From: Chloroflexota bacterium
Lineage (GTDB): Bacteria > Chloroflexota > Anaerolineae > J036 > Brachytrichaceae
Direction of reading: 5' to 3'
Assembly: GCA_021788625.1 (NCBI GenBank)
Contig: JAJYKL010000001.1
Location: 1-64,000 of the forward strand
Length of the DNA stretch: 64,000 bases
Part shown: one piece after another, positions 46,327 through 56,249 of the stretch
How the letters are laid out: each line of letters begins with the position of its first letter
Position numbering within the stretch: the stretch's first letter is position 1
Position numbers and translations under genes: made by a program
The notes under the pieces: generated by a model
Database searches by the model: none
Told to the model about the DNA's origin: nothing
What the model saw: the letters and a program-made list of their open reading frames with translations, nothing else

Positions 46327-47850
46327 ATGGACACAATCATTGGACTGGATATTGGCGGAACTAAAACGGCCATCCTGGAAGGTACCTACGAGGCTGACAT
46401 ACTGCAGCGGCATGAGATCCCAACCCAGGCACAAGATGGTTTTCCCGTCACCTTCGAACGAATATGTGCAGAAGTCGAATCCATCATGCAGACCGCCAAG
46501 CAATTGGGGCGCATGATCGGTGCTGTGAGTGTCTCAATCGGAGGGCCGCTCAAGATTGACGAAGGCATCATCCTCGCGCCACCACACCTGCCCCATTGGG
46601 TAAACGTGCCACTGAAAACCCTCCTCGCCCAACGCTTCAACCTGCCTGTATTCGTAGAACATGATGGTAATGCCGGCGCGCTGGCAGAGTATTTTTTTGG
46701 AGCAGGTCGAGGCGCTCGAAATATCATTTTTCTCACGGCCGGTACAGGGCTGGGAGGCGGTTTCATCATCGAAGGACAGCTGTATCGAGGGACGACCGAC
46801 ACCGCCGGAGAGGTTGGCCATATCCGTCTCGCCAATGAAGGACCCATGGAATATGGCAAGGCTGGATCATGGGAGGCTTTTTGTAGCGGCGAGGGAATGT
46901 TGAAACTGGCGCAATCGATGTTCCCAGGGCATTATCCTGATGCACTGACCACGCGTGACCTGGTTGATGCGGCGCTCGAAGGAGACGAGATCGCCAGGCA
47001 GGTAATCCATAAATCGGGCGAGTGGTTGGGCCGTGGGCTGGCCGTGCTGATTGACACGCTGAACCCGCAAGTGGTGGTATTGGGCAGTCTGGGCGGAGCC
47101 CTGGGCGACTTGTTTTTACAGCCTGCACGTGATGTAGTATTGGCCGAGTGCCTGCCGCAGCCTGCGGATGCATGCCGCATCGTGCCAGCGCAACTGGGCA
47201 CCCGGCTGGGCGATGTGGCGGCACTGATCGCGGCGATTCACATGCACCGGCAGTCTACGGCGGCTCCGAGTCCCACCATCTCGACGCCGTCTAGCGCACT
47301 GGCTGTAACCTTGCAGGATAGCCTGCGAGTTCAGATGCGCATGAGCGATATTGCCGAGGTGATTGAGAAGTCGGCCAGAGCAATATGCCGGGCCTTGCAG
47401 GACGGGCGCAAGGTGATTGTTTTTGGGAATGGAGGGAGTGCCACTCAGGCACAACATCTGGCAGGCGAGCTGGTGGGCAAATATGGTCCAGCTCGTAAGT
47501 CACTACCGTCCATCGCATTAACAGCCGACTCGGGTGTTGTGACCTGCATTGCGAATGACTTCGGTTATGAGCATGTTTTCTCGCGTCAGGTCGAGGCGTT
47601 CGCCCAACCCGGTGACGTGGTGATCGGCATTACTACCAGTGGCAGGTCTTTGAATGTGATTCAGGGATTGGATGCCGGACGAGAGAGAGGTGCAGTGACG
47701 GTTGCCATGACTGGAGAGCGCGGTCTGGTCGGCTCCAGTGCGGATTTTGTTATCCCTGTACCCAGTGGTAATACAGCGCGCATCCAGGAAGGGCATGCCT
47801 TCATCGTTCACTACTGGTGTGATGTCATCGATGCAGAGTTTACCAAGTAG
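46327..47850 (+). CDS. ROK-family sugar kinase fused to GmhA-type phosphosugar isomerase
   Basis: A 507-residue two-domain protein. The ROK domain (about 1-305) has the phosphate loop GLDIGGTKTAI, catalytic D113 in VEHDGNAGALAEY, TAGTGLGGGFII and GEVGHI. The zinc-binding CxCGxxGC motif of most ROK kinases is replaced by a stretch with Met-Glu-Tyr-Gly and Gly-Ser. After a linker (about 306-335), the SIS domain has VIVFGNGGSATQAQHLAGEL, IANDFGYEHVFSRQVEAFA, GITTSGRSLNVI and TARIQEGHAFIVH, as in sedoheptulose-7-phosphate isomerase. It is downstream of ppk1 (36 bp). The pairing suggests phosphorylation and isomerisation of one sugar; which sugar is unknown. Confidence 0.9.
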   Translation: MDTIIGLDIGGTKTAILEGTYEADILQRHEIPTQAQDGFPVTFERICAEVESIMQTAKQLGRMIGAVSVSIGGPLKIDEGIILAPPHLPHWVNVPLKTLLAQRFNLPVFVEHDGNAGALAEYFFGAGRGARNIIFLTAGTGLGGGFIIEGQLYRGTTDTAGEVGHIRLANEGPMEYGKAGSWEAFCSGEGMLKLAQSMFPGHYPDALTTRDLVDAALEGDEIARQVIHKSGEWLGRGLAVLIDTLNPQVVVLGSLGGALGDLFLQPARDVVLAECLPQPADACRIVPAQLGTRLGDVAALIAAIHMHRQSTAAPSPTISTPSSALAVTLQDSLRVQMRMSDIAEVIEKSARAICRALQDGRKVIVFGNGGSATQAQHLAGELVGKYGPARKSLPSIALTADSGVVTCIANDFGYEHVFSRQVEAFAQPGDVVIGITTSGRSLNVIQGLDAGRERGAVTVAMTGERGLVGSSADFVIPVPSGNTARIQEGHAFIVHYWCDVIDAEFTK

Positions 47851-51772: not shown

Positions 51773-52273
51773 ATGAGAAAGGGTTTTTCACGCAGGGAGT
51801 TATTGCGATCGACGGTTATTATGGGTGGTTTGGGAGTAGGTTCCATCGTTTTGGAAGCATGTGGCAGCGCGGGACCGAGTGCGACACCAACTCCCGCTGC
51901 TGGTCTGGGAAAAACATACACCTTTACCTTGGATGCAGGTAACACGGTGGCGTTCAGTCAGCAAAAACTGACAGCAGAGGCCGGTTCTAAAATAACTGTC
52001 ACCTTCACGAATAAATCCACAGATAAGCAATATAACTGGGTTCTTTCTCAACCAGGTAAAATGCTACGTGTGGTGACGGACGGACAGTCGCAAGGGTCAA
52101 GCAGTGGTTATGTCGTACCCAATGACCCCAATGTAATTGCCCATACAAAGCTACTGAAGCCTGGCGAAAGTGATACGATCACGTTTAATGCGCCGCCACC
52201 CGGCAGTTACCCTTTTTTCTGTACATACCCGGGATTTTATACACGACTGAACGGTACTCTGATTATAACGTGA
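51773..52273 (+). CDS. Azurin-like cupredoxin-fold lipoprotein lacking most copper ligands
   Basis: A 166-residue lipoprotein. ATG at 51773 has AGAGGAG at 51758-51764. The N-terminus carries a twin-arginine motif (SRRELLR) and a lipobox ending at C30 (VLEACG), so it is exported by Tat and lipid-anchored outside. The mature part (about 45-166) aligns by eye with azurin: VVTDGQSQG, VIAHTKLLKPGESDTITF, FFCTYPGFYTRLNGTL. Azurin's copper ligands His46, Cys112, His117 and Met121 correspond to Y87, C150, F155 and L159: only the cysteine remains. An electron-transfer role is therefore doubtful. A strong terminator follows. Confidence 0.9.
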   Translation: MRKGFSRRELLRSTVIMGGLGVGSIVLEACGSAGPSATPTPAAGLGKTYTFTLDAGNTVAFSQQKLTAEAGSKITVTFTNKSTDKQYNWVLSQPGKMLRVVTDGQSQGSSSGYVVPNDPNVIAHTKLLKPGESDTITFNAPPPGSYPFFCTYPGFYTRLNGTLIIT

Positions 52274-52304: not shown

Positions 52305-52346
52305 AACAAAAACATCGTCCGCATGAATGCGGACGATGTTTTTGTT
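52305..52346. terminator. Bidirectional rho-independent terminator
   Basis: A 19-bp perfect stem (52305-52323 with 52328-52346) around a TGAA tetraloop; the core is ACATCGTCCGCA. T-runs flank both sides (TTTTTGTT on the plus strand, and its complement on the minus strand). It separates the convergent cupredoxin and permease genes. Confidence 0.93.
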
Positions 52347-52376: not shown

Positions 52377-53285
52377 TCAGCCTGTACGCTCTGATGAGGG
52401 ATCCAGTGCGTCGCGTACACCGTCTCCGAAGAAGGAAAAGCCGATGAACACGATCATCAACAAGGCTGTTGGGTAAGCCCCCAGGTAGACGAAGCTCTGC
52501 ACGTACTGGCCGGCGTTCCCCAGCATCTTGCCCCAACTGGGCGTCGGGTCGTTGATGCCATAGCCCAGGAAGCTCAAGCCGGCCTCTGCGACCATAAAGC
52601 CAGGAATGCCGAAGGCGATGCTTACCAAAATGGGGTTGATGATGTTGGGGAGTATGTGACGCAATGCGATGAAGCGTGTGTTGGCACCCAGGCTGCGCGA
52701 TGCTTCCACGAACTCGCGATCCTTATAGCTGAGCACCTGGGCGCGTACCAGACGCACCATGCCAGGCCAGGACAGAATTGCGATCGCGAAGGTCACGTTG
52801 AGCGTGCCGTTGCCGATCATGGTCATAATCAGGATCTGGAACAGCAAACCTGGCATGGAACCCACTATTTCAAGCATACGGTTTACGACGAAATCGATGG
52901 TTCCCTTATACCAGGCGGCCAGAAACCCCAGTACGATGCCAACTAGTAGTGCAAACGTCATGGACGTTACACCTACGATCAAGCTGGTATTCGCACCCCA
53001 GATCAGGCGGCTGAGGAAGTCGCGCCCCGCGTCGTCCGTGCCCAGCAGGTGACCAGGTAACGTGCCGGGAGGTGCAAATGTATAGATGCTTGTTTTGTCG
53101 AATGGATAGGGGGAGATGATGGGTGCGAAGACGCCGGTGAAGAGGAAGAGGAAGACGATGACTCCGCCAAGGATGGCAAGCTTATTCTTGCGGAAACGAC
53201 GCCACGCCAAATAGAACGGCGAAAGCACTTTGTATTCCGTCGGTGCTGCCTTTTTTTGAGTTCGAGCGAGATTTACGGTTGCCAT
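52377..53285 (-). CDS. Oligopeptide-type ABC transporter permease (OppC/DppC family)
   Basis: A 302-residue inner-membrane permease. The cytoplasmic N-terminus ends with SPFYLAWRRFRKNKLAILGG, helix 1 follows, then the domain LLGTDDAGRDFLSRLIWGAN. The EAA loop is VEASRSLGANTRFIALRHIL. GLSFLGYGINDPTPSWGKML is a family block. It starts 13 bp after the OppB-like gene. The terminator lies just beyond its end, so no ATPase gene (oppD/oppF) follows. Confidence 0.93.
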   Translation of the reverse strand: MATVNLARTQKKAAPTEYKVLSPFYLAWRRFRKNKLAILGGVIVFLFLFTGVFAPIISPYPFDKTSIYTFAPPGTLPGHLLGTDDAGRDFLSRLIWGANTSLIVGVTSMTFALLVGIVLGFLAAWYKGTIDFVVNRMLEIVGSMPGLLFQILIMTMIGNGTLNVTFAIAILSWPGMVRLVRAQVLSYKDREFVEASRSLGANTRFIALRHILPNIINPILVSIAFGIPGFMVAEAGLSFLGYGINDPTPSWGKMLGNAGQYVQSFVYLGAYPTALLMIVFIGFSFFGDGVRDALDPSSERTG

Positions 53286-53298
53286 TCTATTCTCTTGT

Positions 53299-54228
53299 TC
53301 AGGTCAGCCGGATGCGTGGATCAAGGATGGTGTAGGCAATGTCCGTCAGGAGGTAGGTCAGAGTCAGGATGACTGCAATGATCAGCACGCTGGCCATGAT
53401 GACTGGGTAGTCGCGGTTGGTGATGCTGTCCAGGTAGAAGTGGCCGATGCCAGGGATGACGAACCACTGTTCGACGAAAGCGGATCCCGTGATGGCATTG
53501 GTCAATACAGGACCGAAGATGGTCACGATGGGCACCAGCATGTTGCGCATGGCGTGCTTCACGATGACCTTGGCTCTGGATACGCCCTTGGCGCGCGCCG
53601 TGCGGATGTAATCTTGGCCGAGCACGTCAAGCATGCCGTGGCGCATGTAGCGCGCCAGGGACCCGACAGTGCCCAGCCCGAAGATAATGACGGGCAGCAC
53701 CAGCGTCTTCGGATTACCACTGGGATTCCACCCGCCGTAGGGGAACCAGCGCAGGTCGACGGCGAAGATGGCCAGGGCGAAAAACGCCAGGGCGAAGGAG
53801 GGCAAGGTGACGGTTACGAGTGCGAACACCGTGATGATCTGGTCTAGGAGCTGGTTGCGGTGCAGCGCCGCCACGATGCCCAAAACCGCGCCGAGGGGGA
53901 AGCTCCACAGGACGGCCAACCCACCCAGCAGCAGGCTATTGGGCCAGTACTTAAAGAACAGGTCAGTGACCTTCTGGCCAGGGTACTTGTACGAGTAGCC
54001 AAAATCGCCATGCACGGCGGCGATCATATACTTGGCCCACTGCACGTAGAAGGGTTGGTCCAGACCGTACTTGGCGATCATGTTGGCCTTGGCAACCGGC
54101 TCCAGTGGCATGTTCGTCTCGTCGAACGGTCCTCCGGGTGTTTTCCACATCAGGAAGAACGTAATGAATGACACGGCCAGAACAACAAAAACAAAACCGA
54201 GTAGCCGTTGTAGCAGGTATCGCGACAT
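53299..54228 (-). CDS. Oligopeptide-type ABC transporter permease (OppB/DppB family)
   Basis: A 309-residue permease. It starts MSRYLLQRLLGFVFVVLAVS and includes the family's GPFDETNMPLEP loop, YGLDQPFYVQWAKYM and GDFGYSYKYPGQKVTDLFF; the EAA loop is YIRTARAKGVSRAKVIVKHAMRN in pieces. It pairs with the OppC-like protein to form the membrane channel. The gap to the binding-protein gene upstream holds a 10-bp hairpin (54259-54289) that may reduce transcription into the permeases. Confidence 0.93.
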   Translation of the reverse strand: MSRYLLQRLLGFVFVVLAVSFITFFLMWKTPGGPFDETNMPLEPVAKANMIAKYGLDQPFYVQWAKYMIAAVHGDFGYSYKYPGQKVTDLFFKYWPNSLLLGGLAVLWSFPLGAVLGIVAALHRNQLLDQIITVFALVTVTLPSFALAFFALAIFAVDLRWFPYGGWNPSGNPKTLVLPVIIFGLGTVGSLARYMRHGMLDVLGQDYIRTARAKGVSRAKVIVKHAMRNMLVPIVTIFGPVLTNAITGSAFVEQWFVIPGIGHFYLDSITNRDYPVIMASVLIIAVILTLTYLLTDIAYTILDPRIRLT

Positions 54229-54305: not shown

Positions 54306-56249
54306 CTATGGGATGGTGCGCTTGGCGGCGGCTACTTCTGAGGTGATGTACATCGATGAGAAGTAAGGTGTGAAGCCTGCGTTCGCCGGCCAGGCCCAAC
54401 CAGGGTTGGTGTTGACCTTGCCAGGCAGGAAACCGGGGCCTTTCAGATAGGGCTTCCACAGGTTGACGGGTGTGCGGTGATAGATCCACACGAACGCGCA
54501 ACTCTCCGTCAAGATCTTTTCAGCCTGCTGGTAGAGCTGCGTGCGCTCGGGCTCCTGGCTCATCGGGCCAGCTTTGGCTAGCAGGTCCTGGTACTGCTTG
54601 TCGTTCCAGGTGTGGCGTCCACCCAACTTGTTTCCCTTAAACACGCCCAGCATGTTCGATGGGTCCAGGTAGTCCATACCGTAAGAGACGCAGCCGAACG
54701 GGATGGAAGGCGTGGCCAGCGTGTCAGCCGTGAAGGTCTTCCCGTCCATCGCCTTGACGTCTACATTGATCCCCAAGTTTGTCTTGATGGCGTCAGCGTA
54801 GGTGCTGCAGATGGCATTGTAGGGTGGGTTATCGTTGCGGTAGATGATGGTCAGGTTGGTCACCTTCAAACCCGATTGCTGGTAGAGCTGTTTGGCCATG
54901 TCCGGGTTGTAAGCCTGGATGTCCTTCAGGGCTTCTTCGTTGGAGGCGGGGAAGCCGGGGGCCAAGAAGCCGTAAGCCGGGCGGCCCAGGATGGGCTTGA
55001 CGATGTTCTTGACGATGTTCTCACGATCCAGCAGGTGCGCCAGCGCCTGGCGGAACTTCAGGTTGTCATACGGTTTTTGCAGAACATCGAAGAAGAAGTA
55101 ATCGGTGCGGAAGTCGCCCACATCGGGTGTGGCATCCTTGCTGAGAGTCGGGCTGTTTAGCACCGTCTCAATATCAGCGGCGGAGCCAATACCAACGTTG
55201 TCGATCTGACCAGCCTGGTAGGCTTGGAAGGCGTTCTGGTAGGGCACGAAGATGACGCGCTCCAGGAAGGGCATGATGTCGGGAGCAGCCTTGGTGTTGA
55301 TGACGGCCTCAAAGCGTGTAGGCGACCAGTTCTTGACAAGGAACTGACCACAGGAAACGCACTTGGCCGGGTCGGTGATATACTGCGCGCCGATCTTGGG
55401 ATCTTTGTTGGGAGCCGCGGCGGTGGCGGCCGCCAGTGCCTTGGCGTTGAAGGGCATGTAATAGATGGTCAGGCGCGGCATGTAAGGCGTTGGCACGCTG
55501 GTTTCCATAATCAGCGTGTAGTCGTCTGTCTTGTTTACTCCAAGCTGATCCATCGTTGCTTTCTTCGCGACGACTTCTCCAAAGTTCTTGATGTTGCCAG
55601 TGCCCTTGTCCCAGTACCATGTGAAGTCGTAGGCGACTGCAGGGTCGGCCATGTGCTGCATGGTGGCAATGAAGTCGTCGGCGTTCAGGTTGCCGGAGCC
55701 ATCAGACCAGGGCAGGTCGTTGCGCAACTTGAATGTCCAGGTCAGTCCGTCAGCGGAAACGGACCATGTGGAGGCTGCACCGGGCACCATCTCGAAGTCG
55801 TGATTGATACGGGTGAGGGGTACGGCGTATACATCGGCGAGACCTGAGCGGTTATACACACTGCCGGTAATCTGGCCATCGGTACCAGGACCAGCCGCGC
55901 CACTCAAAAGGTATACCTGCTGGTCGGGCGGAGCAGCATCTGCTGGTAATACCTTGCCACCGCTATTGGCAGCCGCGGCTGCAGTGGCGGTAGCAGCCGG
56001 CGTGTCGGTGGCTGCCGGTGCAGCGGGGGTGTCTGTTGCAGCAGTCGTCGCAGTTGCAGCAGGGGCGGACGTGTCTGTCGCGGCGGGGGCTGAAGTATTA
56101 GTTGCGGCTGGTGCGGTAGTGGGAGCAGGTGTTGGTGTGGCACCGCATGCGACTAGGGCAGCTGTGGCGCCTGTCGCACCCAGCACCTTCAGCATTTGCC
56201 GGCGAGTTACCACGGTCTTGCTGATCTTGCGTGTTACGGACGAACTCAT
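54306..56249 (-). CDS. ABC transporter substrate-binding lipoprotein, family 5 (peptide/oligopeptide)
   Basis: A 647-residue extracytoplasmic binding protein. A Tat-like motif (TRRQMLK at 15-21) and a lipobox ending at C35 (LVACG) give an anchored lipoprotein. Residues ~36-100 are a low-complexity Ala/Thr/Pro linker with recurring AATDT and APAAT units. The SBP_bac_5 body follows, with FKLRNDLPWSDGSGNLNADD and FRQALAHLLDRENIVKNIV as signatures. AAGGAGGA at 56257-56264 sets the start. A consensus promoter and a ~200-nt leader precede it. Substrate (peptide, sugar or nickel) cannot be read from sequence. Confidence 0.93.
   Translation of the reverse strand: MSSSVTRKISKTVVTRRQMLKVLGATGATAALVACGATPTPAPTTAPAATNTSAPAATDTSAPAATATTAATDTPAAPAATDTPAATATAAAAANSGGKVLPADAAPPDQQVYLLSGAAGPGTDGQITGSVYNRSGLADVYAVPLTRINHDFEMVPGAASTWSVSADGLTWTFKLRNDLPWSDGSGNLNADDFIATMQHMADPAVAYDFTWYWDKGTGNIKNFGEVVAKKATMDQLGVNKTDDYTLIMETSVPTPYMPRLTIYYMPFNAKALAAATAAAPNKDPKIGAQYITDPAKCVSCGQFLVKNWSPTRFEAVINTKAAPDIMPFLERVIFVPYQNAFQAYQAGQIDNVGIGSAADIETVLNSPTLSKDATPDVGDFRTDYFFFDVLQKPYDNLKFRQALAHLLDRENIVKNIVKPILGRPAYGFLAPGFPASNEEALKDIQAYNPDMAKQLYQQSGLKVTNLTIIYRNDNPPYNAICSTYADAIKTNLGINVDVKAMDGKTFTADTLATPSIPFGCVSYGMDYLDPSNMLGVFKGNKLGGRHTWNDKQYQDLLAKAGPMSQEPERTQLYQQAEKILTESCAFVWIYHRTPVNLWKPYLKGPGFLPGKVNTNPGWAWPANAGFTPYFSSMYITSEVAAAKRTIP

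Follow-up and report, generated by a model that had tools for sequence, protein, structure and literature searches.

What does an azurin-type protein do once the residues that hold its copper have gone? The question is raised by a gene at 51773-52273 of the window, by which we mean the whole analysed stretch of 64,000 nucleotides from a Chloroflexota bacterium. The original prediction described the product as an azurin-like lipoprotein, and its open reading frame, start, RR signal, lipobox and coordinates agree with the sequence and the translation. The frame opens with ATG, AGAGGAG lies a short way 5′ of this codon, and the features needed below are as follows.

51773 to 52273, plus strand: gene for a ligand-less azurin-like lipoprotein of 166 aa (open reading frame and translation; Pfam, NCBIfam and PDB matches; family alignment)
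51773 to 51862, plus strand: N-terminal RR signal peptide (SRRELLRS) up to lipobox Cys30, whose codon is 51860-51862 (from sequence; route and lipidation are predicted)
52031 to 52033, plus strand: codon 87, TAT, Tyr, at the position of azurin His46 (azurin alignment and clade table)
52220 to 52249, plus strand: former copper loop, codons 150-159, CTYPGFYTRL, with Cys150 retained, Phe155 at His117 and Leu159 at Met121

Searches with phmmer matched the protein to Roseiflexus auracyanin (6kol, 2.5e-21), auracyanin A (2aan, 1.3e-19) and solved azurins (about 1e-18), and auracyanin and azurin matches together spanned 2.5e-21 to 1e-15. The Pfam Copper-bind profile (PF00127) was passed with an E-value of 5.8e-10 and 39.9 bits against a cut-off of 21.2, and Cupredoxin_1 was also passed. 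The NCBIfam azurin model TIGR02695 gave 7.1e-18 and 65.1 bits, which is below its equivalog cut-off of 105.1. In a gapped alignment to azurin 1gr7, Tyr87, Cys150, Phe155 and Leu159 fall on His46, Cys112, His117 and Met121, exactly the assignment that had been made by eye. A type-1 site requires two His, a Cys and an axial Met, and the window protein reads Y-C-F-L in their place. The protein aligns with azurin over most of its length and shares the NWVL, VIAHTKL and CTxPG blocks, but it scores below the azurin cut-off and lacks ligands 46, 117 and 121.

The fold had been expected to survive this loss, and the predicted structure supports that expectation. An AlphaFold2 (AF2) model built from six sequences had a mean pLDDT of 67, which is moderate, with core blocks at 80-90 and eight strands. 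Foldseek placed Roseiflexus auracyanin 6kol on top (E 2.1e-9, TM 0.76 by target length), with auracyanin B next and many azurins after it. Together with the Copper-bind profile, the strands and the Foldseek matches place the protein in the cupredoxin (plastocyanin/azurin) superfamily. The nearest solved relatives in both sequence and fold are the auracyanins (Chloroflexus auracyanin A and B, Roseiflexus 6kol), with which it has the azurin-type blocks in common. However, auracyanins hold copper through His-Cys-His-Met (HCHM), whereas in the window protein and its closest relatives both His are replaced and the docking face is altered.

These relatives belong to one Chloroflexota family, which contains the genome of the window (G000), Candidatus Roseilinea and Thermoflexales bacteria, and a relative was found in 25 of 28 family genomes. 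Alignment and tree were made from 43 full-length rows of this family. HCHM is present in 26 rows, and 14 rows, from genera g1, g5, g7 and g8, have Phe or Tyr at 46 and Tyr, Phe or Met at 117. The 14 ligand-less genes formed a single clade (support 99/92) nested among HCHM paralogues, and the clade persisted at 98/91 when the four ligand columns were removed. The nesting and the auracyanins at the top of the PDB matches support the proposed descent from auracyanin-type copper proteins, and the clade probably arose when an auracyanin/azurin-type copper protein was duplicated inside the Roseilinea/Thermoflexales family. Identity to the HCHM paralogues (for example L030, L033 and L031) is about 42-51%, and the signal and lipobox are the same, with R7, R8 and C30 unchanged in all 14 clade members; the paralogues differ in their intact ligands, hydrophobic patch and different genomic neighbours. 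A sequencing error at the two His codons is ruled out by 13 further full-length genes from other genomes, which also lack both His.

Within the clade, codon 87 specifies Phe in 12 members and Tyr in two, and 13 of the 14 combine one Phe with one Tyr at 46/117, the g5 member having Tyr/Met. The window pair is Tyr/Phe and 12 other members have Phe/Tyr, so exactly one Tyr is found in every pair (14/14). This regularity suggests two side chains in contact with one hydroxyl kept, although few evolutionary events lie behind the pattern. A separate observation concerns genus g2, in which three azurin-like lipoproteins (L066 476-838, L067 481-927, L068 472-831) have Gln at His46, two of them also with Ser at Cys112. 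They lie apart from the 14-gene clade in the tree, although their placement beside a long branch is unsure, and they probably represent an independent loss of the copper site.

Downstream of the gene, and facing it, lies an Opp-type ABC operon.

52305 to 52346, no strand assigned: 19-bp perfect hairpin with A-rich/T-rich flanks between the convergent genes (RNA fold -29.3 kcal/mol, z -9.3)
52377 to 53285, minus strand: OppC/DppC-type ABC permease, the convergent neighbour (Pfam BPD_transp_1 and OppC_N; conserved adjacency)
53299 to 54228, minus strand: OppB/DppB-type ABC permease (Pfam BPD_transp_1)
54306 to 56249, minus strand: SBP_bac_5 substrate-binding lipoprotein, in the operon of the OppC/OppB permeases (Pfam 1.5e-58; orthologues)

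A tail-to-tail arrangement with OppC-OppB-SBP_bac_5 was found in 13/13 loci with enough contig, from four genera, the SBP gene of one locus lying beyond the contig end. Gaps between the ligand-less gene and the operon range from roughly 26 to 220 bases, and the adjacency holds despite upstream genes that vary between genera. In G024 (L194, L195) the ligand-less gene is cut after residue 148, the operon is absent and CarB comes next instead, and G017 has neither gene nor operon. The protein might be an extracytoplasmic accessory lipoprotein of the importer, for example in substrate capture or presentation or in contact with the SBP or permease. We regard this as rather unlikely. A common operon with the transporter is rejected, as the genes are convergent and in the window a strong hairpin, probably a bidirectional terminator from its sequence although a simple terminator consensus scan did not flag it, stands between them, so that they would not be co-transcribed. 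In G011, and in genus g2 with lower identity, orthologous operons stand without an azurin-like gene, and a second SBP-OppB-OppC copy in the genome of the window (C187, L193 6694-10580), 73-95% identical to that of the window, likewise has none adjoining. Synteny is conserved to a comparable degree around the copper paralogue, whose neighbours are plainly unrelated to it, and the adjacency may therefore be positional inheritance; for this reason the functional link to the operon is weak and can serve as a lead only. The more specific proposal, in which the azurin-type fold is now dedicated to an Opp-type ABC importer, as an accessory or receptor lipoprotein that would bind through its former electron-transfer face, with the aromatic pair in place of copper, is a shade more doubtful again.

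Could the protein still hold a metal at the old site? The predicted ligand loss has to be divided here. Replacement of both His applies throughout the clade, but the loss of Met121 is confined to the window genome, where Leu159 is peculiar, and the other 13 members keep Met. Cys occupies the Cys112 position in 10 of the 14, and Thr replaces it in three g8 members and the g5 member. Copper ligands at other positions, the case that the original prediction had named against itself, were not found: no His is conserved across the 14 members, and three of the four that lack the Cys (L007, L008, L018) are devoid of both His and Cys past the lipobox, in the mature chain. An alternative ligand set is rejected, as the clade conserves no such set of His, Cys or Met. 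Given the absence of a conserved His and the pattern at Cys112 and Met121, some members cannot form a type-1 copper site at all, and for the others such a site is implausible. Binding of another metal, or weak binding of Cu(I) through Cys150, Met121 and Tyr, could draw on the Cys of 10 members and the Met of 13, residues with which some members might bind a soft metal weakly. As a function of the clade it is nevertheless quite improbable, considering the Thr in two genera, the Leu of the window protein at 121 and the lack of any conserved substitute set.

Thiol redox chemistry by a lone cysteine, which had been offered as one possible role, is even less probable. Cys150 is the sole cysteine of the mature window protein apart from that of the lipobox, and it is the residue kept in 10 of 14 members; however, where Thr replaces it in g8 and g5, the rest of the clade signature is unchanged, and a redox role for the family is not supported. 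Replacement of both His together with loss of the Cys in four members argues strongly against both a type-1 copper site and a cysteine-redox role. Hence, on the evidence of its residues, the ligand-less protein should not be classified functionally with the azurins or auracyanins.

Purifying selection acts on the ligand-less genes with the same strength as on their copper paralogues. For genus g7, the mature part gave a median dN/dS of 0.066 in ligand-less genes (21 pairs) and likewise 0.066 in copper paralogues (28 pairs). The truncated copy in G024 and the missing copy in G017 might suggest a gene decaying toward a pseudogene, but this can hardly be the case with 14 intact open reading frames in four genera and dN/dS of about 0.07, and the earlier view that the changes are not random decay is borne out.

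The surface has changed as well. When the 14 ligand-less proteins were compared with 26 copper paralogues, position 85 (azurin 44) was Lys or Arg in 13/14 against mostly Leu, Val or Met in the copper paralogues, position 105 (azurin 64) was Gln in 11/14 against Ile, Leu or Met, and position 158 (azurin 120) was Thr or Arg in 13/14 against Leu; the window protein has Lys85, Gln105 and Arg158. Azurin positions 44, 64 and 120 are part of the hydrophobic patch around His117 that serves docking and electron transfer. The hydrophobic docking patch of an azurin-type electron carrier is thus missing, and the polar change extends across the clade. In addition, Leu/Phe98-Arg99 is newly conserved and specific to the clade. 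The electron-transfer face has changed together with the ligands, as expected from a change of job.

Judged by sequence comparison, then, the type-1 ligands are lost and the docking face is changed, with the fold kept and selection strong. The reading that we consider probable is a cupredoxin lipoprotein, copper-free and neofunctionalised, whose former metal site is filled by aromatic residues and which would act by binding a partner and not by electron transfer. The RR signal would export the protein, and a lipid on Cys30 would anchor it on the outside of the membrane. The former copper site may be filled by packed aromatic residues, a Phe/Tyr pair in 13/14 members, which would stabilise it instead of the metal. 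The polar and charged face, with the conserved 97-105 segment and the Tyr/Arg loop, could then bind an extracellular protein or small-molecule partner, and carrying electrons would no longer be among its roles. Most likely the protein works without copper, as a module for binding or structure that is tethered to the membrane, and very probably the fold has been reused for a copper-independent job in filamentous relatives of Candidatus Roseilinea that span several genera.

When the whole G000 genome was searched with the window protein, no further copy turned up. In two congeners (G008, G010), genes for peptidases of types S49 and M28 flank the copper paralogue; in G000 both peptidase genes are present, about 265 bases apart, with no coding remnant between them. 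The assembly is 92% complete, and since this syntenic site is intact, loss of the paralogue in assembly is unlikely. Of the two versions, the bacterium of the window retains the copper-free one and has lost the other. Genomes that carry both copper and copper-free paralogues, together with the one that kept only the copper-free form, offer a natural experiment on what the blue copper fold can do once copper is gone. There is also a warning for annotation: the gene passes a Pfam copper-binding cut-off, and an auracyanin label would wrongly provide G000 with an electron carrier. A link to phototrophy was considered and rejected. Photo_RC was detected in 16 of 28 family genomes and was not found in G000, G008 and G012, all three of which have the ligand-less gene.

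Ligand loss in small cupredoxins is already known from plants, in which early nodulin-like phytocyanins (ENODLs) are reported to be unable to bind copper (PMC4499708). ENODLs are a precedent for this mode of evolution, as a cupredoxin branch without copper binding, but they form a separate plant phytocyanin lineage and a subfamily other than the azurin-like clade described here. The literature searched offered little on copper-less cupredoxins and no description of a conserved bacterial ligand-free azurin/auracyanin subfamily. In the parts consulted, a survey of azurin genes describes Chloroflexi sequences as divergent, with the p28 region often missing and the MGHN tetrapeptide less conserved, and those parts contain no description of ligand loss (PMC8779525). 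For the Roseilinea relative JP3_7, an auracyanin was reported and Alternative Complex III was absent (PMC5826079), and Roseilinea has likewise been described without Alternative Complex III (PMC8446752).

Beyond the family, the stronger matches that were read contained no clear case of the ligand-less form. A class-level search of 396 genomes gave hits at 1e-12 in 37 genomes, 25 of them from the family of the window, and a phylum-level search of 400 genomes gave 46 with matches at 1e-14. Among the 72 aligned out-of-family stretches of the phylum search, in which a few loci are counted twice, 63 were HCHM and none clearly lacked both His. By eye, the stretches without HCHM are alignment slips or fragments; L134 and L140 are the exceptions. 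These are two cupredoxin copies of one genome (G708) from another Chloroflexota family; both have Ser for the copper Cys, and one additionally has Gln for His117. Elsewhere in the window, a single open reading frame at 46327-47850 apparently joins, as judged by eye, a ROK-type sugar kinase to an SIS/phosphoheptose-isomerase-like domain.
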